Shown here: piece by piece, positions 13,021 to 30,053 of the stretch
Numbering within the stretch: position 1 is the stretch's first letter
How the letters are laid out: every line of letters starts with the position of its first letter
Assembly (NCBI GenBank): GCA_027484315.1
Contig: JAIXTE010000066.1
Span: 1 to 38,503 of the forward strand
Source: Burkholderiales bacterium
GTDB taxonomy: Bacteria; Pseudomonadota; Gammaproteobacteria; Burkholderiales; Burkholderiaceae_B
Direction: 5' to 3'
DNA: 38,503 nt
Program-made: the position numbers and the translations under genes
The notes under the pieces: generated by a model
Seen by the model: only the letters and a program-made list of their open reading frames with translations
Database searches by the model: none
What the model was told of the DNA's origin: nothing

Positions 13021-13030
13021 GAGGGGTGGC

Positions 13031-13050
13031 GAGGCCGTTTGTTCGGCCTC
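13031..13050 (+). terminator. hairpin after the 591-aa gene
   Basis: GAGGCCG-TTTGTT-CGGCCTC, a perfect 7-bp stem beginning 11 bp after the stop codon. No T-tract follows, so termination would be weak or factor-assisted. It lies between convergent genes. Confidence 0.45.
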
Positions 13051-13119
13051 ACCGGGTGAAGTAACTTGCAGATCATTTGATCCGGCGGACGTTCAATGTC
13101 AAAGTCGGAGCGTTAGTCA

Positions 13120-13932
13120 TTACAAGCCCATTCCGTTGGTGTTTTTCTTTACGGAATGAGTTGAATTCTCTTCATGAATCCGTTCGGCGTCCGGGTGACA
13201 ATCGACAAGGAACGCCATCATTTCAGTGGCATCCTTCTCCAAGTAAAACCTGACCATCTTTTCATTGAATTGTTGCACCTTAGCCGCGGGGACACTGATC
13301 GCATCAATACCCGCCGACATCAGAATACCGTTCATCATGAAACGTGATGTGCGCTTGTTGCCATCGAAGAAGAACTGTTGCAAGGCACCGAAAAGGAAAA
13401 AGGCGGCCGCTTTCTCAAAGGGTTGCTGAACATCTCTTTGGAGCATCTCTAATCCGCTGGTAAAGACGCGGTTCAACTCCGGCGCACCAGGCACGGTTGC
13501 CAATGGAGTGTATCGACCATGTTCGCCCAGTCCAACATCCGGCGTGTATCCGGTTTCTTCGCCTTACCCGCGGAAGTGACCCCACTCCAGCGCTTCATTA
13601 CGGGCGACGAGTTCATGTAACTTGATGAAAGTGGCTTTGTCCAATGAAAACTGTCCAAACTTTACCAATGAAAGAAGGTGTTCGGAGCTGACTGCCAGAT
13701 GAAGAATCTGTTCTTGATCTGAAATTTTGTGCCCGCCAAAAGTCACACCATCAAGCAAGGCCTTGACTTCAGGCAAGGTAAATGGATTGCCTTCGAGCAC
13801 GCCGGCGTCCCAAACAAACTCTGGCAGCATGCGATGAAAACGGAAGGCCACTCGATCTATAGAGTGAGTTGGAATAACGTGGGGAACCGCTGACCTGTCC
13901 CAGTGAAATCCGAGCGCAGAAAAGAGTTTCAT
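13120..13932 (-). pseudogene. fic-family gene with one in-frame stop
   Basis: Start ATG 13932 has AAGGA five bases upstream. Translation runs to a TAA at 13564-13566 (after EWGHFRG), then continues in the same frame with GEETGYTPDVGLG and on to the Fic core. With the stop read through, the product is about 270 residues, a normal Fic size. GAA to TAA would be the simplest change. The Fic motif reads QFFFDGNKRTSR where HxFx[DE]GNxRxxR is usual, so the catalytic His position is Gln. The tail KKNTNGMGL fits the shared C-terminal motif. Fic enzymes usually transfer AMP or other NMP to target proteins. The gene is therefore either dead, doubly impaired, or expressed by readthrough. Confidence 0.8.
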
Positions 13933-14021
13933 ATTTTCCTTGATCCCACAAAGTGGTCTGGTTTTATTGTGGTGAGACGGAGCAATCAAGGCAAAAAATG
14001 ATTCCAGCGGTTACAAAAATC

Positions 14022-14501
14022 TTAACTAGGATAGGCTTTTTTATTGCCCTCGCCTGTAAACCCGATGACTTCCAGAAGATATGAGACCCATATCACCCAC
14101 ACAATCAGCAAGACTACCAGAGTGTGATCATGCAGTGATCTAAGCACGGGAATCTGGTTTTGCAGCGACATCAATACGGATGATCTGTAGAACACGTTAA
14201 AGAAGTGCTCACTTGTGTTGTAGACGGAGAGTCCCAATAAAAAAAGAAGCCCGGCTACAGTGAGGGCTCCAGCTCTATTCGGCTTGTCTATGACCAACCC
14301 ATGGCGCGCCATATAAAATACCACCGCGGCAAAGACCAAAAGCCAGTAAACCCACGATTGCTGAGTGAGGCCAAGGTCAAGACGTAACGCCATGAAATCC
14401 ATCCCGAGTACAAAAAGGTAACCGAGAAATGCGCCTTTTGATGCCCGAATGAGAACACCAACCTGGCCATTTAAATCATCCTGTTTCATCAAGGAACCCA
14501 T
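14022..14501 (-). CDS. four-segment membrane protein
   Basis: A 159-residue protein with hydrophobic segments at about residues 24-42, 48-65, 78-95 and 126-147 (LVVLLIVWVIWVSYLLEV). ATG 14501 is 8 bp after the preceding gene's stop; an alternative ATG lies four codons in. It belongs to a minus-strand pair with the 118-residue gene. No transporter or enzyme motif seen. Confidence 0.65.
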   Translation of the reverse strand: MGSLMKQDDLNGQVGVLIRASKGAFLGYLFVLGMDFMALRLDLGLTQQSWVYWLLVFAAVVFYMARHGLVIDKPNRAGALTVAGLLFLLGLSVYNTSEHFFNVFYRSSVLMSLQNQIPVLRSLHDHTLVVLLIVWVIWVSYLLEVIGFTGEGNKKAYPS

Positions 14502-14509
14502 GAATGTAG

Positions 14510-14866
14510 TCAGATCTCACTGAGTGAAGGCTGAGCCGCATTCTTGACTGCGGTGACGGTTGACTCTTGAAACACTTCCGGTTGAGCCGAAAACACGCCA
14601 GGCGGCCGTAGGTACAGGGGCACAAGTTCTACGCCCGCCATTTCGCAAGCTTTCTTGTTGTGGGCAGCCAGACCAGTGATCTCCCCACCGCCACACTGCT
14701 CAAGCTGATGTGCGTGCGCAAGGAACACTGGTTTTTCCGCGAGACGTTTTTCCCAGGAATCCAGTATCTTCATGATTGCGTCAGCAGCCTCTTGTTCTGA
14801 TTCACCACGGGCACTGATAAGAGAGGCGACGATTGAACTACGCAAAGAATGGAGATTATTGTTCAT
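14510..14866 (-). CDS. unknown 118-aa protein
   Basis: Soluble, helical N-terminal half (residues 5-60, including EQEAADAIMKILDSWEKRL) and a less ordered Pro/Gln-rich end. It starts at ATG 14866, 80 bp from the left target duplication of the 10.9-kb element, so the element landed in its upstream region and may have displaced its promoter. Family not recognised. Confidence 0.55.
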   Translation of the reverse strand: MNNNLHSLRSSIVASLISARGESEQEAADAIMKILDSWEKRLAEKPVFLAHAHQLEQCGGGEITGLAAHNKKACEMAGVELVPLYLRPPGVFSAQPEVFQESTVTAVKNAAQPSLSEI

Positions 14867-14946
14867 GGATAAATTTAATGAGAAAAGGGATTATGAAAAT
14901 AATACCTGATTATAATTACAAAGAAAATTAATTGATCAATATGCAA

Positions 14947-14954
14947 TTAATTAG
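14947..14954 (+). repeat. target-site duplication, left (TTAATTAG)
   Basis: Identical in sequence and orientation to 25873-25880, immediately outside the two ends of the element. An AT-rich 8-bp duplication is what the ISL3 family typically makes. Confidence 0.92.
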
Positions 14955-14980
14955 GGCTATGTGCAATAAGTGGTTGAAAA
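14955..14980 (+). repeat. left terminal inverted repeat
   Basis: 26 bp beginning GGCTATGTGCAATAAGTGGT. Compared with the right end it differs at positions 7, 13, 15 and 23 only. Its inner part GTGCAAWAAGTGGTTG recurs twice further in. Confidence 0.9.
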
Positions 14981-15016
14981 CGAGTTTCTTACTGAAAAAT
15001 AATTTTGTTTTCTTTT

Positions 15017-15032
15017 GTGCAAAAAGTGGTTG
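15017..15032 (+). repeat. subterminal repeat 1 (GTGCAAAAAGTGGTTG)
   Basis: Repeats the inner 16 bp of the left terminal repeat with one mismatch, 56 bp downstream. Its end overlaps the -35 box of the hsdM promoter. Candidate transposase or regulator binding site. Confidence 0.8.
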
Positions 15033-15057
15033 AATTCATTTTTTATCCTGATACACT
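15030..15057 (+). promoter_or_regulatory. hsdM operon promoter
   Basis: TTGAAT (15030-15035) and TACACT (15052-15057) with a 16-bp spacer. The start of transcription would be about 15064, leaving a leader of about 23 nt. Subterminal repeats sit on the -35 and on the start site, a layout typical of repression. Confidence 0.6.
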
Positions 15058-15062
15058 GTATT

Positions 15063-15078
15063 GTGCAAAAAGTGGTTG
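15063..15078 (+). repeat. subterminal repeat 2 (GTGCAAAAAGTGGTTG)
   Basis: Exact copy of the repeat at 15017-15032, 46 bp further on. It covers the predicted transcription start and ends 8 bp before the hsdM start codon. Confidence 0.8.
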
Positions 15079-15086
15079 GGATAAAA

Positions 15087-17120
15087 ATGAACGATACGAA
15101 CGAAATCACACAAGTCTCAGGTTCAGCGTCTTTTTTGGGAGACTTCATCTGGAAAAATGCTGAAGACCTGTGGGGGGACTTCAAACACACGGACTTTGGA
15201 AAGATTATCCTTCCATTCACCCTTCTGAGGCGACTTGAGTGTGTGCTTGAGCCCACCAGAAAAGCTGTCAATGAGGCGTATGCCTTGCATAAAGACGGGG
15301 AGCTGGATGTTCCTTTAATTCTTCGTCAAATCAGCCAATATCCTTTCTTCAATACTTCTGAATACAGTCTTGCCACCTTGGGCGGAACGCGTACCAGGCA
15401 AAACCTTCTCGACTATGTTGCACACTTTTCGGACAACGCCAGACAAATATTTGAACTCTTCAACTTTACAGACACGGTAGCCCGCATGGACAAGGCCGGA
15501 GTCTTGTTCAAGATCACGAAGAACTTTGCCAGTGTTGATCTGCATCCTAATGCAGTTCCAGATCGGGCAATGAGTAACTTGTATGAACACTTGATTCGCA
15601 GATTCGGCGCTGCGGTCAATGATGGGGCCGAGGACTTCATGACCCCGCGTGATGTGGTTCACTTGGCTACCATTCTCTTGCTGGATGCGGATGATGATCT
15701 CTTTGCCTCTAGCCCCGGACTGATTCGTACCATCCACGACCCTACATGTGGAACTGGCGGTTTTTTGTCGGATGCAATGAACCATGCGGAAGAATACGGA
15801 AGCAAATACAAAATTGCACCCGTGCTTGTGCCTCATGGTCAAGAGCTGGAACCCGAGACCTATGCGGTAGCACTCTCAAACATGCTCTTGCGTCGCCTGC
15901 CCAATGAGCCAGGCCGTGATCTCTCCAAGAACATCAAACAAGGCAGCACCCTGTCAAACGATCAGCTTGCCGGGGAGCGATTCCACTATGGGCTTGCCAA
16001 CCCGCCTTTCGGCAAGAAGTGGGAGAAGGACCAGAAGTCGGTTGAAGCTGAATTCAAATTAGGTCACATGGGTCGCTTTGGACCTGGGTTGCCGCGAATC
16101 AATGACGGCTCCATGCTTTTCTTGATGCACATGGCTAAGAAGCTTGAGTTGCCTGAAAACGGAGGCGGACGCGCTGCCATCGTTCTTTCTGGATCGCCTC
16201 TGTTTAACGGTGGTGCCGGCTCAGGGGAATCAGAAATCCGTCGCTGGCTGCTCTCGAATGACCTAGTGGAAGCAATAATCGCTTTGCCGGAACAGATTTT
16301 CTTTCGAACAGGGATTGCGACCTACCTTTGGATTCTTTCCAACAAAAAGGACAAGAAGCGCAAAGGCAAGGTTCAATTGATCAATGCGACCGGACTGTGG
16401 GATTCAATCAAGAACGAAGGTAACAAGCGCCGTGCCGTGACTCCCGAATACCAGCGTCAGATTGCCGATACTTACCTGTCCTGCGAAGATTCAGAGATCA
16501 GCAAGATTCTGGATTTCAGGGCCTTTGGCTATCGAAGAATCAGAGTTCTGCGTCCTCTACGAATGTCGATTCAGATCAATGATGCGACCGTCTCACAACT
16601 TGCCAATGAAAAAGGCTTTTCCAAGCTCGATGAAACGGCTCAAGCGGCTTGGCTGGATTGCTTAAAGCCCCTTCAAGACACCACCCATCCTTATGGGTGG
16701 GTAGAAGATTTTTTGAATGAACACTGTGCGAAATATCCAGAGGTTTTCAAATACACCAAGACACTTGCCAAGTCATTCATCAATGGGCTTGGGGTTAAGG
16801 ATGAAAATGGCGAAGCCGTGCTAGATGCTGATGGCAACCCAATTGCGGATACTGACCTGACGGATTATGAAAATGTGCCTTTATTGGACAGCATTGAGGA
16901 GTATTTCGCTAGAGAGGTTTTGCCGCATGTCCCTGATGCTTGGATTGACAACACCTTCGTAGATGACCTGGATCGGGATACTGGCCGTGTTGGATTTGAG
17001 ATCAATTTCAATCGGTTTTTCTACAAATATGTCCCGCCACGCAAGCTGCAAGACATTGACCTTGAATTGAAGCAAGTTGAAGATGAAATCAATGCGCTGT
17101 TAAATGAGGTAACCGAATGA
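15087..17120 (+). CDS. hsdM: type I restriction system methyltransferase subunit HsdM
   Basis: 677 residues from ATG 15087; the frame is open 24 codons upstream through the repeats, but conserved HsdM sequence starts here. N-terminal HsdM_N helical domain at about 16-60 (FIWKNAEDLWGDFKHTDFGK). The N6-adenine methyltransferase domain has FMTPRDVVHL (about 184), S-adenosylmethionine-binding DPTCGTGGFL (about 218) and catalytic NPPFGKKW (about 303). With HsdS it methylates adenine in a bipartite DNA target; with HsdR it also restricts unmodified DNA. It overlaps the next gene by 4 bp (ATGA). First gene of the cargo operon. Confidence 0.96.
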   Translation: MNDTNEITQVSGSASFLGDFIWKNAEDLWGDFKHTDFGKIILPFTLLRRLECVLEPTRKAVNEAYALHKDGELDVPLILRQISQYPFFNTSEYSLATLGGTRTRQNLLDYVAHFSDNARQIFELFNFTDTVARMDKAGVLFKITKNFASVDLHPNAVPDRAMSNLYEHLIRRFGAAVNDGAEDFMTPRDVVHLATILLLDADDDLFASSPGLIRTIHDPTCGTGGFLSDAMNHAEEYGSKYKIAPVLVPHGQELEPETYAVALSNMLLRRLPNEPGRDLSKNIKQGSTLSNDQLAGERFHYGLANPPFGKKWEKDQKSVEAEFKLGHMGRFGPGLPRINDGSMLFLMHMAKKLELPENGGGRAAIVLSGSPLFNGGAGSGESEIRRWLLSNDLVEAIIALPEQIFFRTGIATYLWILSNKKDKKRKGKVQLINATGLWDSIKNEGNKRRAVTPEYQRQIADTYLSCEDSEISKILDFRAFGYRRIRVLRPLRMSIQINDATVSQLANEKGFSKLDETAQAAWLDCLKPLQDTTHPYGWVEDFLNEHCAKYPEVFKYTKTLAKSFINGLGVKDENGEAVLDADGNPIADTDLTDYENVPLLDSIEEYFAREVLPHVPDAWIDNTFVDDLDRDTGRVGFEINFNRFFYKYVPPRKLQDIDLELKQVEDEINALLNEVTE

Positions 17121-18103
17121 GTCAGGTCAGCATTTACAGTTCAGAGTCGGGGTCTGTTGAGGTTCGCTTGGATGGCGACACGGTATGGCTAAGCCAAGCG
17201 CAGATGTCCGATTTGTTTTCTAAAGACGTCAGAACTGTCAACGAGCACATTTCAAACATCTACTCAGAAGAGGAACTTGAAAAGGAGTCAACTATCCGGA
17301 AATTCCGGATAGTTCGACAAGAAGGAAAGCGCCAGGTGAACCGAGAAATAGACCACTTCAATCTGGATGTAATCATTTCCGTTGGCTATCGAGTGAAATC
17401 AGTTGAAGGCACGCGATTTCGCCAATGGGCAACCAAAGTGCTGCGTGAACACCTCACCAAGGGTTACACAATAAACCAGCACCGATTCGAGTCCAACGCC
17501 CAAGAACTTGAGGCGGCACTGAGCCTGGTGCGGAAAGTGGCTGCCAATCCCGATGTGACTGGTCCTGGTGCCCGAGGCCTGGCCGATATTGTCAGCCGAT
17601 ACGCTCAGACCTTTCTGCTTCTTCAACGGTATGACGAAGGTTTGCTGACATCCCCCAAGGTTCAAGATGGCGGAACCCTTCCAACAGTTGATGAGGCCAA
17701 ATCTGCCCTTGCGATTCTCAAATCTGACTTGGTTTCCAAAGGTGAGGCCACTGACCTCTTTGCCAGAGAGCGTGAGGAGGGGCTGGCTTCCCTTCTGGGC
17801 AATCTGGATCAGTCAGTATTTGGCGAGCCTGCTTACCCCAGCATTGAGTCCAAAGCGGCTCACCTGATCTACTTTGTCATTAAAAACCACCCCTTTTCAG
17901 ATGGCAATAAGCGAAGCGGTGCATTTCTCTTTGTTGACTTCTTGAATAGAAACAATCGATTGATTGGGCCCAACGGCGAGCCCGTCATCAATGATATTGG
18001 ACTTGCAGCATTAGCCCTTCTAATTGCCGAATCCGACCCAAGTCAAAAAGAAACCATGATCAACCTGGTCATGAACATGCTTTCTAGCGGAGGGCGCTCA
18101 TGA
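17117..18103 (+). CDS. RhuM-Fic/Doc fusion protein
   Basis: 328 residues. The N-terminal 130 residues (VRLDGDTVWLSQAQMSDLF, REIDHFNLDVIISVGYRV, FRQWATKVLREHL) are a RhuM-family domain. The C-terminal 120 carry a Fic/Doc core with KNHPFSDGNKRSGA (about residue 256), keeping the catalytic His, Phe, Asp, Asn, Lys and Arg. Such RhuM-Fic proteins commonly sit inside type I RM operons, between hsdM and hsdS. A role in modifying or guarding the RM complex is often suggested but not established. It overlaps hsdM and hsdS by 4 bp each (ATGA), so expression is tightly coupled. Confidence 0.9.
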   Translation: MSQVSIYSSESGSVEVRLDGDTVWLSQAQMSDLFSKDVRTVNEHISNIYSEEELEKESTIRKFRIVRQEGKRQVNREIDHFNLDVIISVGYRVKSVEGTRFRQWATKVLREHLTKGYTINQHRFESNAQELEAALSLVRKVAANPDVTGPGARGLADIVSRYAQTFLLLQRYDEGLLTSPKVQDGGTLPTVDEAKSALAILKSDLVSKGEATDLFAREREEGLASLLGNLDQSVFGEPAYPSIESKAAHLIYFVIKNHPFSDGNKRSGAFLFVDFLNRNNRLIGPNGEPVINDIGLAALALLIAESDPSQKETMINLVMNMLSSGGRS

Positions 18104-19416
18104 GTCGCTACAAGCCATACCCCGCTTATAAAGATGCTGGCGTTGAATGGCTTAATTCAATTCCGTGCGATTGGGAAACAAAGCCAATAAAGAGAGTTAC
18201 CACTTGTAACGACGATACTCTTAACGATGACTTTGATCCGCAGGAGAAGATCCGATACGTGGATATTTCATCGGTAAGCCTAACCACGGGGATTGAAAAA
18301 ACGGACGAAATGATCTTTGCTGACGCACCATCAAGAGCCAGAAGGAAGGCTAAAGCAGGTGATGTCGTTATATCCACTGTCAGAACATATTTAAAAGCGG
18401 TTGCCCAAGTTTCCGAGGAGCATGAGGGTTGCGTTTATTCAACTGGCTTTGCCATATTACGAGCAAAAAATGAGTTTGTTTATCAACCCTTCTTGAAGTG
18501 GTTGGCTCTCAACGACCTCTTAATTCAGTCCGTTGAATCGAATTCCAAGGGTCTGAGCTACCCCGCGATCAATGCGAGTGAGTTAATAGATCTTCAGACT
18601 GTATTACCACCGTTTGACCAACAAGTTCTCATTACAAATATTCTTGATAAAGAGACCAAGCGCATCGACGCCCTAATTGCCAAGAAAACCCGCTTCATTG
18701 AATTGCTGAAAGAAAAGCGTCAAGCTCTGATTACACAGGCGGTGACAAAAGGCCTAAACCCCAGCGTGAAAATGAAAGACTCTGGGGTGGAGTGGATTGG
18801 AGAAGTGCCGGAGCATTGGTTGTCAATCAAGTTTAATCATGTTGCTCGCGTGACCGAGGGGTTGGTTGATCCAAAAGAATACCCTTACAGGGATATGTTT
18901 TTGATTGCTCCGAACCATATTGAGTCTGGGACAGGGAAAATCCTTGGGATGGAAACCGCAATTATGCAAAATGCGGAGAGTGGAAAATACACATGCAAAA
19001 AGGGCGCAGTTATTTACTCCAAAATTCGACCTGCACTTGCCAAGGTAACTATTGCCCCATGTGACTGCCTCTGTAGTGCAGACATGTACCCAATGGACTG
19101 TGCTGACAGCACCTATCCAGAATGGCTTTTCTACTTGATGCTGTCTCCACCCTTTACCTCATGGGCAATATTGGAGTCAGACCGAGTAGCAATGCCTAAA
19201 ATCAATCGAGAATCATTGGCTGATCTTCGAGTATTTTTGCCGCCAAAAGAAGAACAATTGTCGGCTGTTTCTTGGCTCAAGGTTCAACTGGAAAAACTTG
19301 AAAAGATCGCCCTGAAAACTCAAAGTAGTATCGACCTCCTCAAAGAACGTCGTTCGGCTTTTATCACCGCTGCAGTTACCGGACAGATCGATCTGCGCTC
19401 GGAGGCAAAGCAATGA
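18100..19416 (+). CDS. hsdS: type I restriction system specificity subunit HsdS
   Basis: 438 residues with the usual two-fold layout. Target-recognition domain 1 spans about 15-180, first conserved helix about 182-222 (KRIDALIAKKTRFIELLKEK), recognition domain 2 about 230-400 and second helix to the end (SSIDLLKERRSAFITAAVTG). Both halves open with matching AGVEWLNSIPxxW and SGVEWIGEVPEHW segments. HsdS sets which two half-sites are recognised; the sites cannot be read from sequence alone. Both recognition domains look complete. It overlaps the next gene by 4 bp. Confidence 0.95.
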   Translation: MSRYKPYPAYKDAGVEWLNSIPCDWETKPIKRVTTCNDDTLNDDFDPQEKIRYVDISSVSLTTGIEKTDEMIFADAPSRARRKAKAGDVVISTVRTYLKAVAQVSEEHEGCVYSTGFAILRAKNEFVYQPFLKWLALNDLLIQSVESNSKGLSYPAINASELIDLQTVLPPFDQQVLITNILDKETKRIDALIAKKTRFIELLKEKRQALITQAVTKGLNPSVKMKDSGVEWIGEVPEHWLSIKFNHVARVTEGLVDPKEYPYRDMFLIAPNHIESGTGKILGMETAIMQNAESGKYTCKKGAVIYSKIRPALAKVTIAPCDCLCSADMYPMDCADSTYPEWLFYLMLSPPFTSWAILESDRVAMPKINRESLADLRVFLPPKEEQLSAVSWLKVQLEKLEKIALKTQSSIDLLKERRSAFITAAVTGQIDLRSEAKQ

Positions 19417-19937
19417 AACACCTTATTCCAGAAATTGTTGCAGCAAGGAGCCTGGCTGAGGATCTCGGGCATGCCTACTACACGATTGAGCATCTCCTGG
19501 CTGCCGTCATTGTGGACAACGACTTCGCCCAGCAAGACCTACTCGGTTTTGTAAATTTGCATACCCCATTGGCTGAGCCCGGAGATATTGCAATGCCAAC
19601 TCTGGGCGTTCAGAGGGTAGCAAAGCGCCTAGCCCATGGGGACAACCTTTTTGACGCGATCATGGCCGAGGGTGATGAAGCCCATGGGCCGCATTTCATC
19701 AAAAAGCATGATCTGACTCAAAAAGATTTCTTGGTTCGGCAGAACGAGGCTGTCTTGACAAGTGAAGGTAACGTAACGGATTCGGCCTATGACGAATTCT
19801 TGGCGCAGAAAGTAAACGCCGCAAGAACCTCTTTCGCTGAAGGTAAATTCCTAACAGCAGAGCAGGTTGAGTCAAAAATGCTTGAAAAAAAGCAAAGCCT
19901 CAAGAACCGCGACAGTTCAAACGGGGAGCCTGCATGA
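19413..19937 (+). CDS. Clp-N-domain-like protein in the RM operon
   Basis: 174 residues. Residues 1-32 (EIVAARSLAEDLGHAYYTIEHLL) match the start of the Clp_N repeat of ClpA/B/C (A-x3-A-x3-GHxYIxxEHLL), the domain that binds adaptors and substrates. A second, weaker copy may cover about 65-105 (GDNLFDAIMAEGDEAHGPHF). There is no AAA module, so it could act as an adaptor or decoy for a Clp protease. In E. coli K-12-type systems ClpXP degrades HsdR to prevent self-restriction; a link here is inference, and Clp_N belongs to ClpA/B/C, not ClpX. It overlaps both neighbours by 4 bp. Confidence 0.65.
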   Translation: MKHLIPEIVAARSLAEDLGHAYYTIEHLLAAVIVDNDFAQQDLLGFVNLHTPLAEPGDIAMPTLGVQRVAKRLAHGDNLFDAIMAEGDEAHGPHFIKKHDLTQKDFLVRQNEAVLTSEGNVTDSAYDEFLAQKVNAARTSFAEGKFLTAEQVESKMLEKKQSLKNRDSSNGEPA

Positions 19938-20524
19938 AAAGCCCAGTGACCTTAAAAACAGCAAAATCAGACAAGCACTGGATATATGTGCTTGAAGCAT
20001 TTGAATCCGGTAATTCCACCCAATACATCATTTGCTTTGATGATGACGAAATCCTGAAGGGCATTGTCATTGTGGGCGAATGGGAGTTCAGTGCTTTTTT
20101 CCGCCTCGCTGAGACGGTTTCCGAAAGGCTCAAAGAAGCAACTGGCCAACAAAAAAGCATCACCGTTTCTTTGAAATGGGATGAAGCGGCACCCATGAAA
20201 TTCAAAGCTGAAAAAGAGTGGAACAGCGAAAAATGGAAAGTGGTTCTTTCCTGCCCTGAACCTTCGCAATGCTGGCGAGCGTGGAATTCAACTTCCGGCA
20301 GCCCAAGAAATTTCATTCTGTACCTTGAGTGGAATGAATTGGTCTCCTTGTTCGACAGGCTAAATGAAATCCCAGAACTAGATGCCCAAGAAGGCGGAGT
20401 CATAGAGCAGATTGATGATTGGGTTGATCAAGCCTCCTTGGACGGACTTGAAGAACTTCCCAAGCGGATTCTTTTGAGCAAACGAAAGTGGGAAACCCAG
20501 TTTGGTTTTAAGCGTCGGTATTGA
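19934..20524 (+). CDS. unknown RM-operon protein, 196 aa
   Basis: No recognised domain. Tryptophan-rich soluble protein with alternating strands and helices (HWIYVLEAFESG, YIICFDDDEILKGIVIVGEW, RNFILYLEWNELVSLF). It starts in the ATGA overlap with the Clp-N-like gene, so its dose is tied to it. Position between hsdS and hsdR suggests a modulator of the RM complex, but nothing in the sequence proves it. Confidence 0.7.
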   Translation: MKSPVTLKTAKSDKHWIYVLEAFESGNSTQYIICFDDDEILKGIVIVGEWEFSAFFRLAETVSERLKEATGQQKSITVSLKWDEAAPMKFKAEKEWNSEKWKVVLSCPEPSQCWRAWNSTSGSPRNFILYLEWNELVSLFDRLNEIPELDAQEGGVIEQIDDWVDQASLDGLEELPKRILLSKRKWETQFGFKRRY

Positions 20525-20596
20525 GAAACCGGCTACAAACGATATTGGCGCAAGCCGTGCAGAACAACAATAAAAACCTCAGAGGGGGAGTACTTA

Positions 20597-21286
20597 ATGG
20601 ATACTGAAACACAATCGATCAGCTTCAAATTGTCTTTCGAGACAATTGAAATTTTGAACGAGATTGAGCGAGATATGAGGGCGCGTGGGTGTCCCAGGGT
20701 CAACAGAACCCGTCTGATGGAAACTGCGTTGCTGTGCATGGCCGCCAACTATCCCAACTTCAGGCTAATCCCAGAGGTCATGAACTCCATGTTCGCAGCC
20801 ACGCAGGACGACTGCACCCGCATAGCCCGCATGACGATGTACCGAAAAGTACTGGAACCCTTTAAGGACCGCATCTACTCTGATGCATGGATCAACAGTG
20901 GGTTCGCCTCAGAGAATTCCTTGTTCCTATGGAAAATCTTGCAGCGACATGATTTTTTCAAGGCGCTTTGTGAAATATCCGACTGGGAGTCAACTCCTTA
21001 CTTCCCCAAAGATGTCGAAGAAGCCTCAAGGCTTGTTTCTATGTTCTATGCCTGCCCAGAGCTGGAGGAGCGATATATGTTGGCTGCAAGCAGTATTGAA
21101 CCCATGGCGTGGCTTAAAAAGGCCTGGCCAGAGATTGGAAGGAATGCCGTTCAATATGGCAACGACCGCAGATCCTCCGAAGATAAGGATCCCAAAAAGC
21201 AGGAAGGATTTGCTAGGTTTTTTGATCACTTTAATGAACAACACTTGAGGCTCATTCAGTCTCGATTTGAATACGAGGCCGAATAA
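20597..21286 (+). CDS. unknown RM-operon protein with ribbon-helix-helix-like start
   Basis: 229 residues, with GGGGGAG seven bases before ATG. Residues 7-50 (ISFKLSFETIEILNEIERDM, then NRTRLMETALLCMA) have the strand-helix-helix rhythm of Arc/MetJ-type DNA-binding domains. The remaining 180 residues are helical and unrecognised (YFPKDVEEASRLVSMFYACP region). It could be an operon regulator acting on the repeats upstream of hsdM, which is inference. The hsdR ATG follows its stop after one base. Confidence 0.6.
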   Translation: MDTETQSISFKLSFETIEILNEIERDMRARGCPRVNRTRLMETALLCMAANYPNFRLIPEVMNSMFAATQDDCTRIARMTMYRKVLEPFKDRIYSDAWINSGFASENSLFLWKILQRHDFFKALCEISDWESTPYFPKDVEEASRLVSMFYACPELEERYMLAASSIEPMAWLKKAWPEIGRNAVQYGNDRRSSEDKDPKKQEGFARFFDHFNEQHLRLIQSRFEYEAE

Positions 21287-21287
21287 A

Positions 21288-24200
21288 ATGAGCGCTCTAC
21301 CGAACAACGATCAAGCACACCAAGAAAAGCACTTTGAGGATTACATTGTTCAAAAACTCAAAGAACAGGGTTGGCATGTCGGGGATTCAAAACACTACGA
21401 CACCGAGACTGCCTTGTATCCAGAGGACCTCCAGCAATGGATGATTGACTCCCAGCCCAAGGCCTGGGATCTTTTGCTGGAAACTAACAAGAATGACCCG
21501 GCCCAAGCACTTAAAGCCCTGACCACTCGGTTGGTGAAAGAGCTTGAAGACGACAAAAAGGGCATGATCCAGGTGCTACGTCGTGGCGTGAGCCTTGCCA
21601 GAATCGGCCATGTGGACTTGAGTGAATCCATGCCTGAGGACAAGCGAAACGAGGATGTGATCAAACGCTACAAAGCGAACCGTCTTCGAGTGGTTCCTCA
21701 ATTGAAATACCATCCAGCCCGTGAATTTGCGATTGACCTGGTTTTTTTTATCAATGGACTGCCGGTTGCCACTGTTGAAGTCAAAACGGATTTCACTCAG
21801 TCTGCTGCAGCGGCTGTCGATCAATACAAAAAAGACCGCTTGCCTTCAGACCCGAAGACCAAGCGAAAAGAGCCCCTTCTGACCTTCAAGCGCGGCGCAA
21901 TCGTCCATTTCGCCATGTCGGATTCAGACATTCAGATGGCGACCAAGCTCGATGGCGACAACACTTTCTTTTTGCCTTTCAACAAAGGCAACAATGGACA
22001 TGCTGGTAACGCACCAAGAGAAGATGGTGAATACCCTGTGGCCTATTTCTGGGAAGAGATCTGCCAGCCCGACGCATGGCTTCGAATCTTCCACAGCTTT
22101 GTGTACGTGGAGAAAAAAGATGTCTCCGACATTTACGGCAATTGGAAGAAGAAGGAAACGTTGATCTTCCCGCGTTTTCATCAATGGGATGCAGTCAATA
22201 AGATGGTTGCAGATGCCAAGGTGAACGGCCCCGGTTTGCAGTACCTATGCGAGCATTCAGCGGGTTCAGGTAAGACCAGTACGATCGCATGGACTGCACA
22301 CGACTTGACCAAATTGCGTTATGACGACGGCAAACCTGTCTTTGACAGCGTAATCATTGTGACCGATCGAAACGTGTTGGATAGCCAACTCCAAGATGCA
22401 GTCCAGCAGATCGATCACCAGTTCGGTTTGATTGCTGCAATAGATCGTGAAAAAAGCTCTCAATCTAAAAGCATCCAGTTGGCAAAAGCCATGGGAAATG
22501 GAACCCCAATCATTGTTGTGACAATCCAGACCTTTCCTTTTGCCATGCAAGAAGTGGTGACCAATAAAGCACTGAAAGACAAGAGCTATGCGGTGATTAT
22601 TGATGAGGCCCACACTTCGCAGACAGGTTCTAGTGCTACCAAGCTTCAAGCCGCCCTGTCGATGAGCTCAAAGGGTGGAACGGGATCAATGACCGTGGAG
22701 GAAATCTTGGCCAAGCTACAAAAATCGCGGGTGAGGCCAAAAAATGTGAGTCACTTCGCTTTCACCGCCACCCCAAAGCACGCAACCATGATGCTATTTG
22801 GGCGCACCAAGGACGGTGAATTAGCCACAGACGACAATCTGCCGGAGTCTTTTCACAAGTACACCATGCGTCAGGCCATTGAAGAGGGTTTTATTCTGGA
22901 TGTATTGAAGGGATACGTTCCTTACAAGACAGCGTTCAATTTGGCAAAGCAGCTCGATGATTCCAAGCGAGTAAGCGGGAAAGCTGCCAAGAAAGCTCTG
23001 GCCCAGTGGATGAATCTACACCCCACCAACGTGACTCAGAAAGTTGAGTTCATCGTGGAGCACTTCAGCAAAAACGTGTCGCACCTGTTGGACGGTAAGG
23101 CCAAAGCAATGGTAGTCACAAGCTCCAGGGCAGCAGCGGTTCGCTACAAACTTGCTTTGGACAAGTACATAGAACGAAACCCCCAGCATGCGGGAATTCG
23201 ATCACTCATCGCATTCTCCGGAAAACTCACAGGGAAAGAGGTCAAGCACATTGAGGACGAAGGAATCAAGGCTGAGGACTTCATCGTGGATGAAGATGCT
23301 GAGTTTTCTGAATCATCAATGAACCTCGATGTTCTAGGTCAAGACTTGCGGCTTGCGTTTGATCGGCCCGAGTACCGAGTCATGCTGGTGGCCGATAAAT
23401 TCCAGACCGGATTTGATCAACCCAAACTTGTAGCCATGTACGTAGACAAGAAGATCGCCAACGATGTGGAGATCGTTCAAACCTACGCCCGCCTGAACAG
23501 AATGGCACCTGGTAAAGACACGGTGTTCATCATTGATTTTGTGAACGACCCGGAGACGGTTCGCAAGGCATTCCTAAAATATGATGAGGGTGCAGAGATC
23601 GAGGAGGCGCAGGACTACGATGTGATCTATGACATTCAGGGTGACCTTGAGGAGCACAGGATTTATGAGCCTCAAGACTTGGAAAACTTCAAGCAGGCTC
23701 GATTTAGATCAATTCGTGACATTACCCAATCTAAGGACCCTCAGCACAAGGCCCTTTTTGCGGCGACGGACCGGCCAACACGAATCTTCAATGAGCGCCT
23801 AAAAATGCTTCGCGAAGCCATGTACATGGCTGAGGACTCCTTTCAAAAGGCGAAGTCTCGTGGAGACAAGACTGGTGAAAAATCGGCTGATCTACACCGT
23901 AAAGAATATGCAGATCAGCTCGCGCATCTCATGACCTTCAAAAACGGGTTAGGTCGCTTTTGCAGAACCTACAGCTACATTGCCCAGTTGGTGGAGTTTA
24001 ACGAACCTGAACTGGAAAACTTTGCAGCATTTGCCAAGCTTTTACAGAAACGGTTGATGGGTCTGCCCCCTGAGGACATTGACTTGAAGGGTCTGGTTCT
24101 CACCGGCTTTGACATCAAGCAAAAACCAGATGAGGGGTCTGGGGATGGTGAAAAGCCTGTCCTCAAACCAATCGGTCCCGGCGGTCAGATCAAGGGAGGA

Positions 24201-24545
24201 CCTGGGGCTGACTATCTAAAAGAAATCATCGACCGGTTGAATAGACTGTTTGGAGAGGCCACGCCCTTAAAAGATCAGGCTGTTTTTGTTAATCACATTG
24301 CATCAATTGCAAAGGAAAGCGATGTGGTCATGGCGCAAATCGAAAACAACACGATGGATCAGGCATTGAAAGGTAATTTACCAGGCGCTGTACAGCAAGC
24401 CGTTGTCAGGGCAATGACCTCACATTCAAAACTCTCCACACTGATGCTGAAGTCGGACAGCCAAGGGATGGCTGCATTGACAGGTTTGATCTACGAAATC
24501 CTGAAAGCCAACAACTCAATTGACATCGACTCACTGAATGATTGA
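21288..24545 (+). CDS. hsdR: type I restriction system endonuclease and translocase HsdR
   Basis: 1085 residues from ATG 21288 (an ATG seven codons upstream lies inside the preceding gene). The N-terminal PD-ExK nuclease has FAIDLVFFINGLPVATVEVK (Asp about 149, Glu-x-Lys about 164). The superfamily 2 motor has Walker A SAGSGKTST (about 325), DEAH box IIDEAHTSQ (about 437), motif III HFAFTATP (about 490), and later QTGFDQP and QTYARLNR. The C-terminal helical domain that docks on HsdM/S is present to the end. It translocates DNA with ATP and cuts away from the recognition site. Length and motifs are complete, so the system should be active. Confidence 0.96.
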   Translation: MSALPNNDQAHQEKHFEDYIVQKLKEQGWHVGDSKHYDTETALYPEDLQQWMIDSQPKAWDLLLETNKNDPAQALKALTTRLVKELEDDKKGMIQVLRRGVSLARIGHVDLSESMPEDKRNEDVIKRYKANRLRVVPQLKYHPAREFAIDLVFFINGLPVATVEVKTDFTQSAAAAVDQYKKDRLPSDPKTKRKEPLLTFKRGAIVHFAMSDSDIQMATKLDGDNTFFLPFNKGNNGHAGNAPREDGEYPVAYFWEEICQPDAWLRIFHSFVYVEKKDVSDIYGNWKKKETLIFPRFHQWDAVNKMVADAKVNGPGLQYLCEHSAGSGKTSTIAWTAHDLTKLRYDDGKPVFDSVIIVTDRNVLDSQLQDAVQQIDHQFGLIAAIDREKSSQSKSIQLAKAMGNGTPIIVVTIQTFPFAMQEVVTNKALKDKSYAVIIDEAHTSQTGSSATKLQAALSMSSKGGTGSMTVEEILAKLQKSRVRPKNVSHFAFTATPKHATMMLFGRTKDGELATDDNLPESFHKYTMRQAIEEGFILDVLKGYVPYKTAFNLAKQLDDSKRVSGKAAKKALAQWMNLHPTNVTQKVEFIVEHFSKNVSHLLDGKAKAMVVTSSRAAAVRYKLALDKYIERNPQHAGIRSLIAFSGKLTGKEVKHIEDEGIKAEDFIVDEDAEFSESSMNLDVLGQDLRLAFDRPEYRVMLVADKFQTGFDQPKLVAMYVDKKIANDVEIVQTYARLNRMAPGKDTVFIIDFVNDPETVRKAFLKYDEGAEIEEAQDYDVIYDIQGDLEEHRIYEPQDLENFKQARFRSIRDITQSKDPQHKALFAATDRPTRIFNERLKMLREAMYMAEDSFQKAKSRGDKTGEKSADLHRKEYADQLAHLMTFKNGLGRFCRTYSYIAQLVEFNEPELENFAAFAKLLQKRLMGLPPEDIDLKGLVLTGFDIKQKPDEGSGDGEKPVLKPIGPGGQIKGGPGADYLKEIIDRLNRLFGEATPLKDQAVFVNHIASIAKESDVVMAQIENNTMDQALKGNLPGAVQQAVVRAMTSHSKLSTLMLKSDSQGMAALTGLIYEILKANNSIDIDSLND

Positions 24546-25839
24546 TCTTCTGAACCTTCCGGGGGTTACTCCGGTGGACATCAGGACTGAAGGTGGATAC
24601 ATCGTCATTGTCGCGGATGTTCAAGAGTCGCAGTCTGGCCTTTGCCCGCACTGTACAAAGCCGCTCTACAAACACGGAAAAAGGCGTATTACGTTTGCGG
24701 ATACTCCAATTCAGATGCAACCTGTAAGGCTGGAAATCGACCGACCAAGACTTCGGTGTGACTCTTGTGGCAAGACCATCACATTCGAACTTCCTTTCCT
24801 CGATGAAAACAGGCGGTGCACGAGAAGGCTCATTGACGCCATCCGTAAACGGTGCCTTTCGGTGACCTTTCATGCTCTGGCCAAAGAAACCGGCTTGGCT
24901 GTCAACACGGTTAAAAATATTGCCAGCGATCTTATTGCGGAACTTGAAGCTACGGTCAAATATGAAACACCGACTATTCTCGGGATCGACGAAGTTCATT
25001 TGGCGGGCGAGTACAGATGCGTGCTGACCAACTTATCGACCAATAGTGTGTTCCAAATCCTTGAGTTTCGCACTCAGCCTGTACTTAAAGATTTTTTCAA
25101 ATCCATGCCAGATAAGGAAAGCGTGGAATGGGTTTGTACGGACATGTGGAGGCCATTCAAGGCATCTTTCGGGCAATATTTGCCTAACGCCAGACTTGTG
25201 ATTGACAAGTTTCATGTGGTCAAAATGGCCTCAGAAGCACTGGAGACAATGCGAAAACAATACCAAGGGGAACTCACAAAAAGGGAGAGGCTGTTCATCA
25301 AAAAATCGATCCGATGGATTACTTTGAAGCGACCATCTTCGCTGAGCAAGGATGAAATTGAAGATCTTGATGTCATCAGGCAACAGATTCCACACTTGGC
25401 AGAAGCCTACGACTTCAAAGAAGCGTTTTATCGAATCTACGATGTGCCCACAAAAGAACTTGCCATGGGATTCTTTGAAGCATGGGATAACTCGTTGCCT
25501 CCGAAGGGTATGGAGCCATTCGAAGCCCTGGCAAAAACGGTCAGACGCCACTATGAGGACATTTTTTCTTACTGGGACACTCCTCATCGCATAACCAACG
25601 CTTATACAGAGGCACTCAATGGTCTTATGAAAATATCAAACAGGCTTGGCAGGGGTTACAGCTACGAAATGATTCGAGCAAAAACACTGTACGCAGCAGA
25701 GGCCAGAAAGGTGGGCATGGGGGTCAAAATTGGGGGTAATAATCAGATTCCAACCAATCATGTTCTTAACAGCGTTGAATATGGCCCCCACATTCCAACC
25801 TTGAATACCCTGTCTGAAGATGATAATTCAAGTATGTGA
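24538..25839 (+). CDS. tnpA: ISL3-family transposase
   Basis: 433 residues, normal for ISL3. Zinc-binding CPHC (36-39) and CDSC (74-77) are followed by a helix-turn-helix-like segment (ALAKETGLAVNTVKNIASDL). The DDE domain has Asp in GIDEVHLAG (about 150), Asp in VIDKFHVVKM (about 222) and Glu in AYTEALNGLMKISNRLGRGY (about 358). All family positions are intact. ATG overlaps the last 8 bp of hsdR, and no separate promoter was seen, so it is likely made from the same long transcript. The right terminal repeat begins 7 bp after the stop. Confidence 0.95.
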   Translation: MIDLLNLPGVTPVDIRTEGGYIVIVADVQESQSGLCPHCTKPLYKHGKRRITFADTPIQMQPVRLEIDRPRLRCDSCGKTITFELPFLDENRRCTRRLIDAIRKRCLSVTFHALAKETGLAVNTVKNIASDLIAELEATVKYETPTILGIDEVHLAGEYRCVLTNLSTNSVFQILEFRTQPVLKDFFKSMPDKESVEWVCTDMWRPFKASFGQYLPNARLVIDKFHVVKMASEALETMRKQYQGELTKRERLFIKKSIRWITLKRPSSLSKDEIEDLDVIRQQIPHLAEAYDFKEAFYRIYDVPTKELAMGFFEAWDNSLPPKGMEPFEALAKTVRRHYEDIFSYWDTPHRITNAYTEALNGLMKISNRLGRGYSYEMIRAKTLYAAEARKVGMGVKIGGNNQIPTNHVLNSVEYGPHIPTLNTLSEDDNSSM

Positions 25840-25846
25840 TTTGGTA

Positions 25847-25872
25847 TTTCCAACCACATTTTGCATATAGCC
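25847..25872 (-). repeat. right terminal inverted repeat
   Basis: Read on the minus strand from 25872 it begins GGCTATATGCAAAATGTGGT and matches the left end at 22 of 26 positions. Confidence 0.9.
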
Positions 25873-25880
25873 TTAATTAG
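25873..25880 (+). repeat. target-site duplication, right (TTAATTAG)
   Basis: Perfect direct copy of 14947-14954, directly abutting the right end of the element. Confidence 0.92.
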
Positions 25881-26007
25881 GAGGCTAGTCACTGGCCAGC
25901 ACGAGTGGATATCATTGTGCGTTTCCACCGGGAAAAACATTGAGAAATTCACCACCTTAGAAATAAGATGAATTAGTTGCAATAACGCGTACTAACCGGA
26001 TCCGAAA

Positions 26008-26619
26008 ATGAGAAATCTGAATGAGAAAATAGACTCCCAAACCTCTGTTGCTGAGACCAATCAAGACCAGCACTTTGTACTTCAGGACAGCCGCTCACTT
26101 CTTGGATCGGTGATGATGTTCTGGCGCGATGGCGGTGGCTACACGTCCGATTTATCCAAGGCTGAAAAATTTACCAAGAACTCCGCGCTCGCGCAGCACT
26201 CATGCAGGTCGTCTGACGTGCCCTGGCCACTTGACTACCTGGCGGAACGAGCCAAGCCCGCCATTGACGTGCAGCTACTACGAAACGAGTACGCAAAGGT
26301 GCAGAAATCAACGCCGGCCGACACCCCGGCAGTCCTCACTGTGGGGGGAGCATACGATGGAAATAGCGTATTCTTTACCTGCAAGGAGGATGAGAAGAAC
26401 GATGACAGAACCAAGAACCTGGACAAGGCCTATGTTTACAGCGCCGGGAGCCTTTATTCAATAGCAGACATCCCCGGTTACAACGCACCCAAGGCGCTCA
26501 TTCTGGAAGACCTGAGAAAAATTCAGTTCATGGTTGTCGATGCGAAGGACTGCGACAAAGCTCAATCCCTGAACTCAAAATACAAGCCCAGGAAAAGCAA
26601 AGAAGCCGGAATCAGCTAA
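26008..26619 (+). CDS. unknown plasmid/phage-type protein, 203 aa
   Basis: The middle segment (VMMFWRDGGGYTSDLSKAEKF, then DVPWPLDYLAERAKPAIDVQ) matches a pattern I know from hypothetical proteins of phages and plasmids (MMWW-x-KD-x-GYT-x-DL ... DVPWPxxYI). No enzymatic residues stand out. The C-terminal 40 residues are lysine-rich and end KPRKSKEAGIS. It is the first gene right of the transposon and is not part of it. Function unknown. Confidence 0.6.
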   Translation: MRNLNEKIDSQTSVAETNQDQHFVLQDSRSLLGSVMMFWRDGGGYTSDLSKAEKFTKNSALAQHSCRSSDVPWPLDYLAERAKPAIDVQLLRNEYAKVQKSTPADTPAVLTVGGAYDGNSVFFTCKEDEKNDDRTKNLDKAYVYSAGSLYSIADIPGYNAPKALILEDLRKIQFMVVDAKDCDKAQSLNSKYKPRKSKEAGIS

Positions 26620-26739
26620 ACCAGTAAAATTCTGCGTACCCCATTAATTTCTGCATTGAGAAGGGTTTTTGTGGTCATTGATCAATCCTGGAGCTCGGGC
26701 TCATCGATACTCATTGGAGACCTGGTGCTTCAAAAGGAG

Positions 26740-27276
26740 ATGATGGCGCGTATCTTCGGCTTTCTTGGACTTGGGTTTTCTCTGGCATCAATGGTACTCA
26801 AGGACAACAAAAGTCTTCTGAGAATAAACATCTTTGCAGCCCTCTGGTGGGGGCTCAATGGATTCTTTCTTGGCTCCCTGACATCGCTGGTTACCCAGAT
26901 CATCGGTGCCGGATTGGCTGGAATCAAGCTGTTCGGAAAGCAGGAAAACCACCTAAAATGGAGCCTGGCCGCCATCACGGGGGTAATCATGTCATGCGGG
27001 CTTACCTGGGATGGATGGAATTCGATACCGGTCACAGCCGCGAGCGTCGCGATCATTACGGCAATCGGGGTTGCCCAAGGACTTCGGGTTCGTTACTGGT
27101 TCTTCGTGGCCAACAGTTTATTCCTGGTGCACGCGATGATCTATGGCGCATATGAGCAAATCATCACTTGTGTTGCATGCTACATTGCCATCGCCATAGG
27201 GATAGTCCGAATGAAAGCGTCGGACTCCAAAAAAGCCAATTCCACGTTTGTTGACAGCGAAAGCCAATCACGCTGA
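26740..27276 (+). CDS. YgjV-like inner-membrane protein
   Basis: About 178 residues. AAAGGAG directly precedes the ATGATG pair at 26740/26743; the frame is open back to 26656 without a ribosome binding site. It has five or six hydrophobic helices, with the order and loop features of the YgjV (Imp-YgjV) family: a short charged loop after helix 1 (LKDNKSLLRINIFAALWWGL), a Trp-containing loop in the middle (TWDGWNSIPV) and a final half with RVRYWFFVANSLFLVHAMIYGAY. The E. coli protein is about 180 residues, of unknown function. It ends in SESQSR. Confidence 0.65.
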   Translation: MMARIFGFLGLGFSLASMVLKDNKSLLRINIFAALWWGLNGFFLGSLTSLVTQIIGAGLAGIKLFGKQENHLKWSLAAITGVIMSCGLTWDGWNSIPVTAASVAIITAIGVAQGLRVRYWFFVANSLFLVHAMIYGAYEQIITCVACYIAIAIGIVRMKASDSKKANSTFVDSESQSR

Positions 27277-27287
27277 GGCCGCCAATT

Positions 27288-27563
27288 TCATTGGGCTACC
27301 TGAGCTTTCTCTCTTGAGCCCTGCATTGCAATTTCAAAGAGCCGATTGTTGTATTCCCGGTTGACGATGCGCACAAGACCGGGCGCACCCCACTCTTTAT
27401 CCGCACGCCCAGGTAGATCCGAGGGGAACTCGCAACCTTGGTATGCAAGCGTAAAAGCCTTGAATCCGTTGTCCGCCTCATCTACGCCCAACTGCGGCAA
27501 GGCATCAAGGTATTCCCTGGCCATCTTTTTCAGGTCTTCAAAATTTATTACGATGGTGCTCAT
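27288..27563 (-). CDS. unknown 91-aa protein
   Basis: ATG 27563 is preceded by AAAAGGAG at six bases, much better than the open-frame extension to 27725. Helical start (FEDLKKMAREYLDAL) and a short strand-rich end (GLVRIVNREYNNRLFEIAM). Soluble. No family recognised. It converges with the YgjV-like gene. Confidence 0.55.
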   Translation of the reverse strand: MSTIVINFEDLKKMAREYLDALPQLGVDEADNGFKAFTLAYQGCEFPSDLPGRADKEWGAPGLVRIVNREYNNRLFEIAMQGSREKAQVAQ

Positions 27564-27908
27564 GTGCACTCCTTTTGTTTTATCCGCGGGCAAGACACTG
27601 GTTTTCCCGGCTGTTGTTTCAAAGAAATATGCTTTCAATGCCTCATTCAGGTCGCTTAGACGCACGCGAGGAGACCCAATAGTTGGTGAATCCTCTCCCA
27701 TGTGGTCGACCTCTGCTGCCATCAATCAGGATCCGGCAATGTTAACTTGCTGAGCTGCGTCACGAACAGAGTCGCCCGCCGCCGGCGCAGGGGGAGAACG
27801 AGGGTTAAGCACGGAGGATTTGCTTTCATTGCCATTGGCAGTAGCATCATCCAATTAATCTTCTCAAAATTCTAAAGGGTGCCCACACCTGGACACCCGG
27901 GTTTCAGG
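27564..27908. other. 345-bp gap without a confident gene
   Basis: The frame of the 91-aa gene is open for 54 more codons upstream, but lacks a ribosome binding site. Otherwise no promoter, repeat or RNA structure was recognised. Confidence 0.4.
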
Positions 27909-28421
27909 TCACAAAGATCGAGCGAGTTCGAACGCCTCGTACTGCTGTTTCGTTATCTCTCGAAAATGGACGTTCTTGATAATCAACTCATCACCGTTAC
28001 ACCAGAACGAGCCATCTAGATCCAACTCGGTGAGGCGCTTTTGATATGCGGTACCGGGCTCATCACCGTTGGCCTCATCGGTTTCTTCCAGAGTCATTGG
28101 GTCATCGTAGAAGAACACTGCGTACTTTCGCGCCTGCTCTTCCAGGGATGCGAGATCACCTTTTTTTTCTGAAAAGAAAACAGATGCGTGCTCTGACGTG
28201 AAGTTACCGTTAACCACGGTGAATTTGACTACAGCATATGTGCCAACGGGCGCAGTTGATTGTGACTTGGCTGCCTTGAGGGCACCAAAATCATCGTACC
28301 CGGCTCGCTTGACCAGGGCATTAAGAACAACACTGCTTTTCAGGCCGAACTGTTTGGCGAGTGCGCTCGCTGCTTCCTGAGCATTGATTTCAATGGTGAT
28401 ACCACGGCTTGCTTGTGACAT
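27909..28421 (-). CDS. short-module protein, 170 aa
   Basis: ATG 28421 has AAAGGA six bases upstream. Residues 9-55 (QEAASALAKQFGLK, NALVKRAGYDDFGALKAA) form the short helical module seen in three other proteins here (at 11245, 31790, 32229), with its hallmark aromatic-Asp/Asn-Phe/Leu turn. The rest is a mixed alpha/beta domain with an acidic loop (ETDEANGDEPGTA). Expressed from a strong promoter at 28590-28618 with a leader of about 160 nt; the promoter carries the same palindromic operator as 7356-7377. Function unknown. Confidence 0.65.
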   Translation of the reverse strand: MSQASRGITIEINAQEAASALAKQFGLKSSVVLNALVKRAGYDDFGALKAAKSQSTAPVGTYAVVKFTVVNGNFTSEHASVFFSEKKGDLASLEEQARKYAVFFYDDPMTLEETDEANGDEPGTAYQKRLTELDLDGSFWCNGDELIIKNVHFREITKQQYEAFELARSL

Positions 28422-28589
28422 GATCATTCCTTTATTGGCGTGCCATCCGCGCAACGCGATTTCCAGGTGTCCGCTTTCCCAGATCAGATGGCGATACCTT
28501 GGAAGATATGGCTCAAATGCCGGTTTTGTATCAGTTCTCTCTGGGCTCAACCCTATGCGGCGAGAAGGTTTCTGATACGACCTGAATCA

Positions 28590-28632: not shown

Positions 28633-28681
28633 CGAAGAAACGGGGTGTCAAGAAAGGAAAGCGGGAGGTTAATTGTCGGGT

Positions 28682-30032: not shown

Positions 30033-30053
30033 AGCAGACCAGCCCAATTGAAA

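Follow-up and report, generated by a model that had tools for sequence, protein, structure and literature searches.

Type I restriction-modification (RM) genes riding inside an insertion sequence of the ISL3 family have a described precedent in ISKpn25, an ISL3 element of 8,154 bp with four reading frames (PMC8796155), among whose passenger genes hsdM is named (PMC5142620). In a further report, the whole 8,154-bp element was caught on an E. coli trap plasmid, with 7 insertions in 5 clones (two clones had two each), and each captured insertion is given with an octamer that we read as its target duplication (PMC8768599). A relative of this type was already known to move in Klebsiella and E. coli. 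We examined 38,503 nucleotides of a Burkholderiales bacterium (assembly GCA_027484315.1, contig JAIXTE010000066.1; the whole stretch is called the window), in which an initial annotation had placed a complete type I RM operon inside an intact ISL3-family transposon. Positions 14,955-25,872 of the window (10.9 kb) are very probably such a transposon, whose own transposase likely moves a predicted type I RM system, a rhuM-fic gene and three further genes as a unit; a proposal on how that unit is controlled, held more tentatively, belongs to the same reading and is weighed below. The idea of a restriction-carrying ISL3 unit is not new: the ISKpn25 literature already reports the hsdM passenger and movement as a unit (PMC8768599, PMC5142620, PMC8796155), and the kind is thus known. 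To it the window adds a member whose cargo includes rhuM-fic and three genes of no clear family.

Reading both junctions confirmed the ends that had been claimed for the element. At the left junction TTAATTAG is followed directly by the first bases of the element, GGCTATGTGCAATAAGTGGTTGAAAA; the right end, on the opposite strand, reads GGCTATATGCAAAATGTGGTTGGAAA and then, outward, a second copy of TTAATTAG. GGCTAT starts both ends, and the terminal inverted repeats (14955..14980 on the plus strand and 25847..25872 on the minus strand) agree at 22 of 26 positions. The perfect 8-bp target-site duplication, likewise as claimed, abuts the element on both sides (14947..14954 and 25873..25880, plus strand). 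With this flank composition, octamers at two fixed places would agree 8/8 by chance with a probability of about 5e-5. Three copies of TTAATTAG were found in the whole window (10284, 14947 and 25873), against 0.52 expected. The third octamer, at 10284-10291, has no link to either end. An ISL3-family transposase, terminal inverted repeats and flanking 8-bp direct duplications, the features of an ISL3 element, are all present.

The main genes between the ends all lie on the plus strand, in the order hsdM, rhuM-fic, hsdS, three genes without clear family, hsdR and the transposase gene tnp, with overlaps between several neighbours. The methyltransferase gene hsdM (15087..17120) encodes HsdM_N and N6_Mtase domains; its mechanical start, a TTG at 15015, was replaced by the ATG at 15087, which is our own placement. 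The first of two slots for additional genes, slot 1, holds rhuM-fic (17117..18103), with RhuM and Fic domains and PADLOC matches to PDC-S23, which spans nearly all of the protein, and PDC-S05. The specificity gene hsdS follows (18100..19416; PADLOC model match over residues 1-436), and then slot 2, with proteins of 174 amino acids (19413..19937; weak Clp_N match), 196 amino acids (19934..20524) and 229 amino acids (20597..21286), the latter two without a family match. The restriction and translocation subunit hsdR (21267..24545) has HSDR_N and SWI2/SNF2 motor domains. All three subunits of a type I system (M, S and R) are thus encoded, together with the methylase, specificity and motor/nuclease domains expected of them, and restriction activity of the hsdM-hsdS-hsdR system is predicted. 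The start of tnp (24538..25839) overlaps the hsdR stop by 8 bp, so that translation of the two is likely coupled. Its product carries Zn-ribbon, helix-turn-helix and DDE_Tnp_ISL3 domains (PF01610, PF13542, PF14690) and scores 303.7 bits against the NCBIfam model transpos_ISL3, where the cut-off is 180. The reading frame is full length, and Asp151, Asp202, Asp223 and Glu358, candidates for the DDE residues, are each conserved in 95% or more of the proteins in an alignment of 66 ISL3 members, in agreement with the earlier claim of an ISL3 transposase with intact key residues. The domain matches likewise agree with the passenger set it had named, hsdM/rhuM-fic/hsdS/hsdR with accessory genes.

ISKpn25, whose gene order we took from the record of plasmid pKPN4 (NC_009650), and the window's element are alike in the order hsdM-hsdS-hsdR-tnp, the GGCTAT ends, the 8-bp duplication and three copies of a left-end motif at element positions 8, 64 and 110. 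They are 64% identical in tnp, 69% in hsdR and 68% in hsdM. Slots 1 and 2 are empty in ISKpn25, whereas in the window's element they hold rhuM-fic and the three slot-2 genes described above; hsdS is different and the right end is shorter in the window. Among 5,426 complete E. coli genomes, 21 carry 80% or more of ISKpn25 together at a single locus. A plasmid protein search returned many records named ISKpn25, as well as records named ISSm4 that put this transposase beside hsdR. The ISSm4-type elements, of about 9.1 kb, occur on Aeromonas and Enterobacterales plasmids in the order hsdM-slot 1-hsdS-hsdR-tnp, with tnp 69% and hsdR 70% identical to those of the window; their slot 1 gene is a YhcG-type PDDEXK nuclease where the window has rhuM-fic, and their slot 2 is empty. 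With hsdM, hsdS, hsdR and tnp between GGCTAT ends and tnp adjoining hsdR, the window's element has the order of both named types and shares their transposase and hsdR lineage (tnp 64-69%, hsdR 69-70%). Another ISL3 element, ISPpu12, presumably also carries genes other than those for transposition inside its ends together with its transposase, as the window's element does; we take its passengers to be metal-related genes, unlike the restriction system here.

The link between tnp and hsdR extends well beyond these named elements. In a genome-contig survey, the best 80 of 99 confirmed relatives represented 79 distinct loci, which fell into two sets: 44 loci (L002-L045) with tnp identity of at least 53%, and 35 others at 40% or less. 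Among the 44, hsdR lies upstream of tnp in 43, and the contig of the remaining one (L041) begins inside tnp. The gap between the two genes is -5 to +37 bp in 41 of the 43; it is 416 bp in L034, and in L035 it is inflated by an hsdR match in two pieces. We detected hsdM in 29 of the 44, and 9 of the other 15 contigs start inside a core gene. For the 35 distant loci, the flanking DNA examined gave no hsdR match in any case. By record titles, the 44 loci come from Pseudomonadota, Bacillota, Campylobacterota, Fidelibacterota and Acidobacteriota, with one lacking an assignment; many of these records are metagenome bins, where contigs of mobile DNA may have been assigned to the wrong genome, but the Bacillota locus L017 comes from a named strain, Sulfobacillus harzensis. 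The literature that we searched, which included few subscription papers and did not extend to ISfinder or TnPedia, held no account of the family-wide tnp-hsdR link, the slots or the promoter repeats described below.

The same kind of ends with the same cargo core, which the initial annotation had suggested seeking at other loci, were found with perfect 8-bp duplications at 27 loci: 17 of the 44 survey loci, 9 of 14 plasmid loci, and the window. These elements range from 7.9 to 15.6 kb and are flanked by 25 distinct octamers, which are 84% A+T; one further perfect 8-bp duplication flanks L118 in E. coli. Near-identical ISSm4 copies lie at different octamers (CTTTATTT, TTTTTTTG, TTTATTTT and ATCATAAT). 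For one of these insertions, L089, a plasmid of Aeromonas salmonicida (L111) provides a letter-perfect empty site: the joined flanks match it with one TTTATTTT, and joined flanks with two copies of TTTATTTT gave no match. The expectation of an empty site with a single octamer and an exact junction thus held for an ISSm4 relative and not for the window's own copy, for which none could be read because neither flank (12900-14954 and 25873-29000) matches any of 15 other genomes of the same genus. The longer flanks (1-14946 and 25873-38503) had no plasmid match by megablast.

These results bear on two alternatives to a mobile unit. The first is a fixed restriction locus that happens to sit beside an unrelated insertion sequence, its ends and duplication owed to chance or to a one-off capture. 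Relatives of hsdR without tnp do exist, and the window's element is present once in its own genome with flanks absent from the 15 congeneric genomes; the same ends, gene order and hsdR-tnp junction nevertheless recur in dozens of loci, 27 of them with perfect 8-bp duplications, and both the matching empty site and the published movement of whole ISKpn25 (PMC8768599) speak against it. We regard this alternative as highly improbable for the window, and for the family it is refuted by the empty site and the repeated structure. The second alternative accepts a true transposon but supposes that this copy is no longer mobile and that its restriction operon is kept for defence alone. It draws on the single copy and on the absence of any close transposase relative from the 15 other genomes, where the best match is 37%, and it conflicts with the intact ends, duplication and transposase frame and the conserved acidic residues; we consider it quite unlikely. 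The single copy and the unmatched flanks do count against mobility of this particular copy, although the absence of the transposase lineage from all 15 genomes also fits a recent arrival. The transposon interpretation accordingly stands, for the window, on the ends, duplication, gene order and hsdR/tnp overlap that we read directly from the DNA, and for the relatives on insertion at many sites, an empty site and the published transposition of ISKpn25. Many-site insertion, the empty site and the ISKpn25 capture likewise support the earlier suggestion of a route by which type I RM systems spread as a unit.

Two further arrangements were seen around elements of this family. Directly before an ISSm4-type element, L087:1-2370 contains a second hsdM, a YhcG-type nuclease gene and a short hypothetical frame, an arrangement that would fit the landing of one copy beside or within another. 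A small element with ISKpn25 ends was considered beside the E. coli anti-phage gene ppl and rejected, since only a 58-bp palindromic remnant is present and its flanking octamers differ. This palindrome consists of two head-to-head ISKpn25-type right ends, at L116:15986-16043 in an E. coli plasmid and L117:15986-16043 in an E. coli chromosome.

We then compared the histories of the core genes. Among 32 elements, protein distances of tnp correlate with those of hsdR at r=0.96, of hsdM at 0.93 and of hsdS at 0.26. FastTree trees were made for tnp, hsdR, hsdM and hsdS, and a quick IQ-TREE analysis of 47 rows for hsdR. The tnp tree has 18 supported splits, of which 9 are also found in the hsdR tree and 1 in that of hsdS. 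Five of the 18 conflict with supported hsdR splits, which tells against a core that always travels intact; with agreement only partial, some exchange inside the core is likely. The Pantoea element L022 and Klebsiella ISKpn25 illustrate the pattern, with DNA identities of 97% in hsdM, 95% in hsdR, 98% in tnp and 55% in hsdS. Positions 18661-19397 of the window, within hsdS, are 83% identical in DNA over 731-737 bp to five ISSm4-type plasmid records of Citrobacter, Serratia and Enterobacter, and these records have no other megablast match anywhere in the window's element. A match so confined to hsdS points to exchange of recognition domains. As judged from these comparisons, tnp, hsdR and hsdM appear to have diverged jointly, with the specificity gene swapped in a moving backbone.

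The association is not obligate. At an identity of at least 57%, hsdR was found in 6 of 369 genomes of the class, the next match reaching only 46%. A tnp follows hsdR in two of the six, the window's own genome and one other. None was found within the 1.5 kb examined in the other four, nor at the Nitratireductor plasmid locus L121, a result that weighs against a strict bond between the two genes. Since close hsdR relatives without tnp exist, the restriction system can do without the transposon, and an obligatory pairing of this hsdR type with the transposase is ruled out. In the hsdR tree three tnp-less rows are basal, transposon rows follow (joint support 92), and tnp-less L127 and L121 are nested among them (82); the window belongs to a 28-row group whose members all have the transposase (Shimodaira-Hasegawa-like approximate likelihood ratio test 98). 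The tree is a quick one with long branches for L127 and the window, and the three changes on it would be explained by one transposase capture and two losses. A scan of viral contigs with hsdR found one locus, L120 of IMG/VR, with only 302 bp after hsdR; it was kept out of the tnp-less count for having too little sequence 3' of hsdR. Its hsdR is nearly identical to that of the restriction operon on L121, and this contig, though catalogued as viral, may therefore be a plasmid.

What varies, besides hsdS, is the content of the slots. In 24 of 38 loci (four of which are ISSm4 copies) a mechanical reading frame of at least 70 amino acids lies between the hsdM and hsdS matches, although that of L042 is possibly part of hsdS. 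Other loci have extra genes in the interval from hsdS to hsdR, or in that from tnp to the right end; L027 has a cargo of 9 reading frames behind tnp. The 72 slot frames formed 52 clusters, and one protein from each of 20 clusters was scanned against Pfam, with the window's three slot-2 genes scanned separately. Matches were obtained for 11 of the 20, including YhcG/DUF1016 nuclease, RhuM, Abi_2, GmrSD, Schlafen-type AlbA_2, PIN, a caspase domain and RlaP, and PADLOC matched 7 of 10 slot proteins, one of them weakly. By contrast with such loaded members, minimal elements (for example L022, L023 and L081) have only hsdM, hsdS, hsdR and tnp. The most fitting picture of the element is a restriction core with places at which additional genes, predicted to act in defence, can be loaded. 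Two elements (L010:12734-15982 and L043:11330-14680) share a protein of about 1,100 amino acids, encoded between tnp and their right ends; its L010 copy matched nothing in Pfam or PADLOC, and the protein is a candidate for a new defence protein. At L054:4161-6342, in the Neomarinimicrobiota bin that also contains L034, a rhuM-fic homologue (60% identical to that of the window) has a distant ISL3 transposase (36%) as its immediate neighbour, and a different ISL3 element may have moved the same defence gene there.

The left end of the element may also serve as a control region. The end motif TGCA-N6-GGTTG, whose first copy lies in the left terminal repeat at element position 8, recurs twice more within the first 135 bp; a version with a 5-base gap had no left-end match, and 6 is the correct gap. 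Copy 2, TGCAAAAAGTGGTTG, is at 15018..15032 (plus strand, element position 64), and its last TTG starts a predicted -35 box, TTGAAT (15030-15035). A predicted -10 box, TACACT (15052..15057, plus strand), follows at 16 bp, with a weak match to consensus (4/6). Copy 3, also TGCAAAAAGTGGTTG, is at 15064..15078 (plus strand, element position 110), 46 bp from copy 2, and runs into GGGA, a possible Shine-Dalgarno sequence, ahead of the hsdM ATG.

We compared 22 distinct left ends, obtained from the 27 after dropping L040 for masked bases and four duplicates. Both inner copies are present in 21 of the 22, against a background of at most 0.075 per end in shuffled ends and 0.14 per kb in element interiors. 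They are also present in all three further tnp-bearing loci (L122, L123 and L158). Within 350 bp upstream of hsdM, the plus strand has no motif in any of four tnp-less loci (L121, L155, L156 and L157), nor in L120. The copies therefore go with the transposase and not with the restriction genes.

Transcription probably starts in the left end, with hsdM made first and the transposase last, so that a new copy would modify host DNA before cutting or moving. From the motif copies we propose, tentatively and at somewhat less than even confidence, that the transposase acts on the transposon's own end to control the restriction operon, a form of autoregulation. In this proposal the transposase would also bind copies 2 and 3, overlapping the predicted -35 box and the hsdM start and ribosome site, and its rising level would damp the whole operon, limiting both restriction and copy number. 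The wider picture that we would draw, with the same reserve, is of a type I system that captured an ISL3 transposase once and founded a lasting lineage: the end would act as operon promoter with two extra transposase sites, repression by the transposase would tie immunity to copy number, the slots would gain defence genes, and hsdS would be swapped.

The main rival gives copies 2 and 3 a purely structural part as extra transposase sites in the transposition complex, like those of other multi-site ends, and no part in regulating the operon; it is a serious possibility although a doubtful one. Right ends, which have no promoter role, can bear extra repeats: further GGTTGG repeats were seen by eye in the first 140 bp of 12 of 27 right ends, and in two of these, L030 and L031, position 64 carries the motif with a match of at least 8/9. 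A purely structural role accounts less readily for the placement of the inner copies. Copy 2 makes TTGA in 20 of 22 left ends, with a -35 match of at least 5/6 in 15 of 22. In 17 of 21, copy 3 leads into GGAG just before the hsdM start, at a distance suited to a ribosome site; the window, with GGGA, is not among these. The spacing of copies 2 and 3 is fixed at 44-46 bp in 21 of 21, whereas copies 1 and 2 lie anywhere between 45 and 67 bp apart.

Under another alternative, which we consider unlikely, the inner copies are operators of a separate restriction repressor, as for RptR in E. coli. RptR represses a type I locus via three direct repeats (PMC12255303), and that island resembles the window in its embedded second defence system and its promoter direct repeats. 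The inner copies moreover share letters outside the core that the ends lack. The RptR island, however, is repressed by a dedicated small regulator and is not described as a transposon in the abstract, and its published site, TAGCTA, differs from the TGCA-N6-GGTTG of the window's element (PMC12255303). The core of the motif is the core of the transposon ends, no copies were found upstream of hsdM in the four tnp-less relatives examined, and the minimal elements show only hsdM, hsdS, hsdR and tnp.

Several observations weigh against control by the transposase, apart from the extra GGTTGG repeats of some right ends. The left end of L027 has a single inner copy. A -10 box of 4/6 is found in only 10 of 22 left ends (3.1 expected from letter shuffles), and one of 5/6 in none. 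The tnp-less L155 has one 8/9 motif match, on the minus strand at -198, and two of the three further tnp-bearing loci, L122 and L123, are close kin. The inner copies also have a flavour of their own, gTGCAAAA..TGGTTG as compared with tTGCATTCTgaGGTTG at the ends. Their six variable bases do not clearly track those of the element's own ends, with 385 of 5000 permutations as good, although between copy 2 and copy 3 these bases follow each other, with 2 of 5000 permutations as good.

Restriction systems are highly mobile, and the vehicle is often unclear; here the vehicle sits inside the system. In records from several phyla, a single transposase lineage has remained paired with a single hsdR/hsdM lineage, while hsdS was swapped and predicted defence genes were loaded. 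If it is true that the end repeats are the operon switch, the old question of how a new cell survives the arrival of a restriction system could be tested directly on about 130 bp of DNA.

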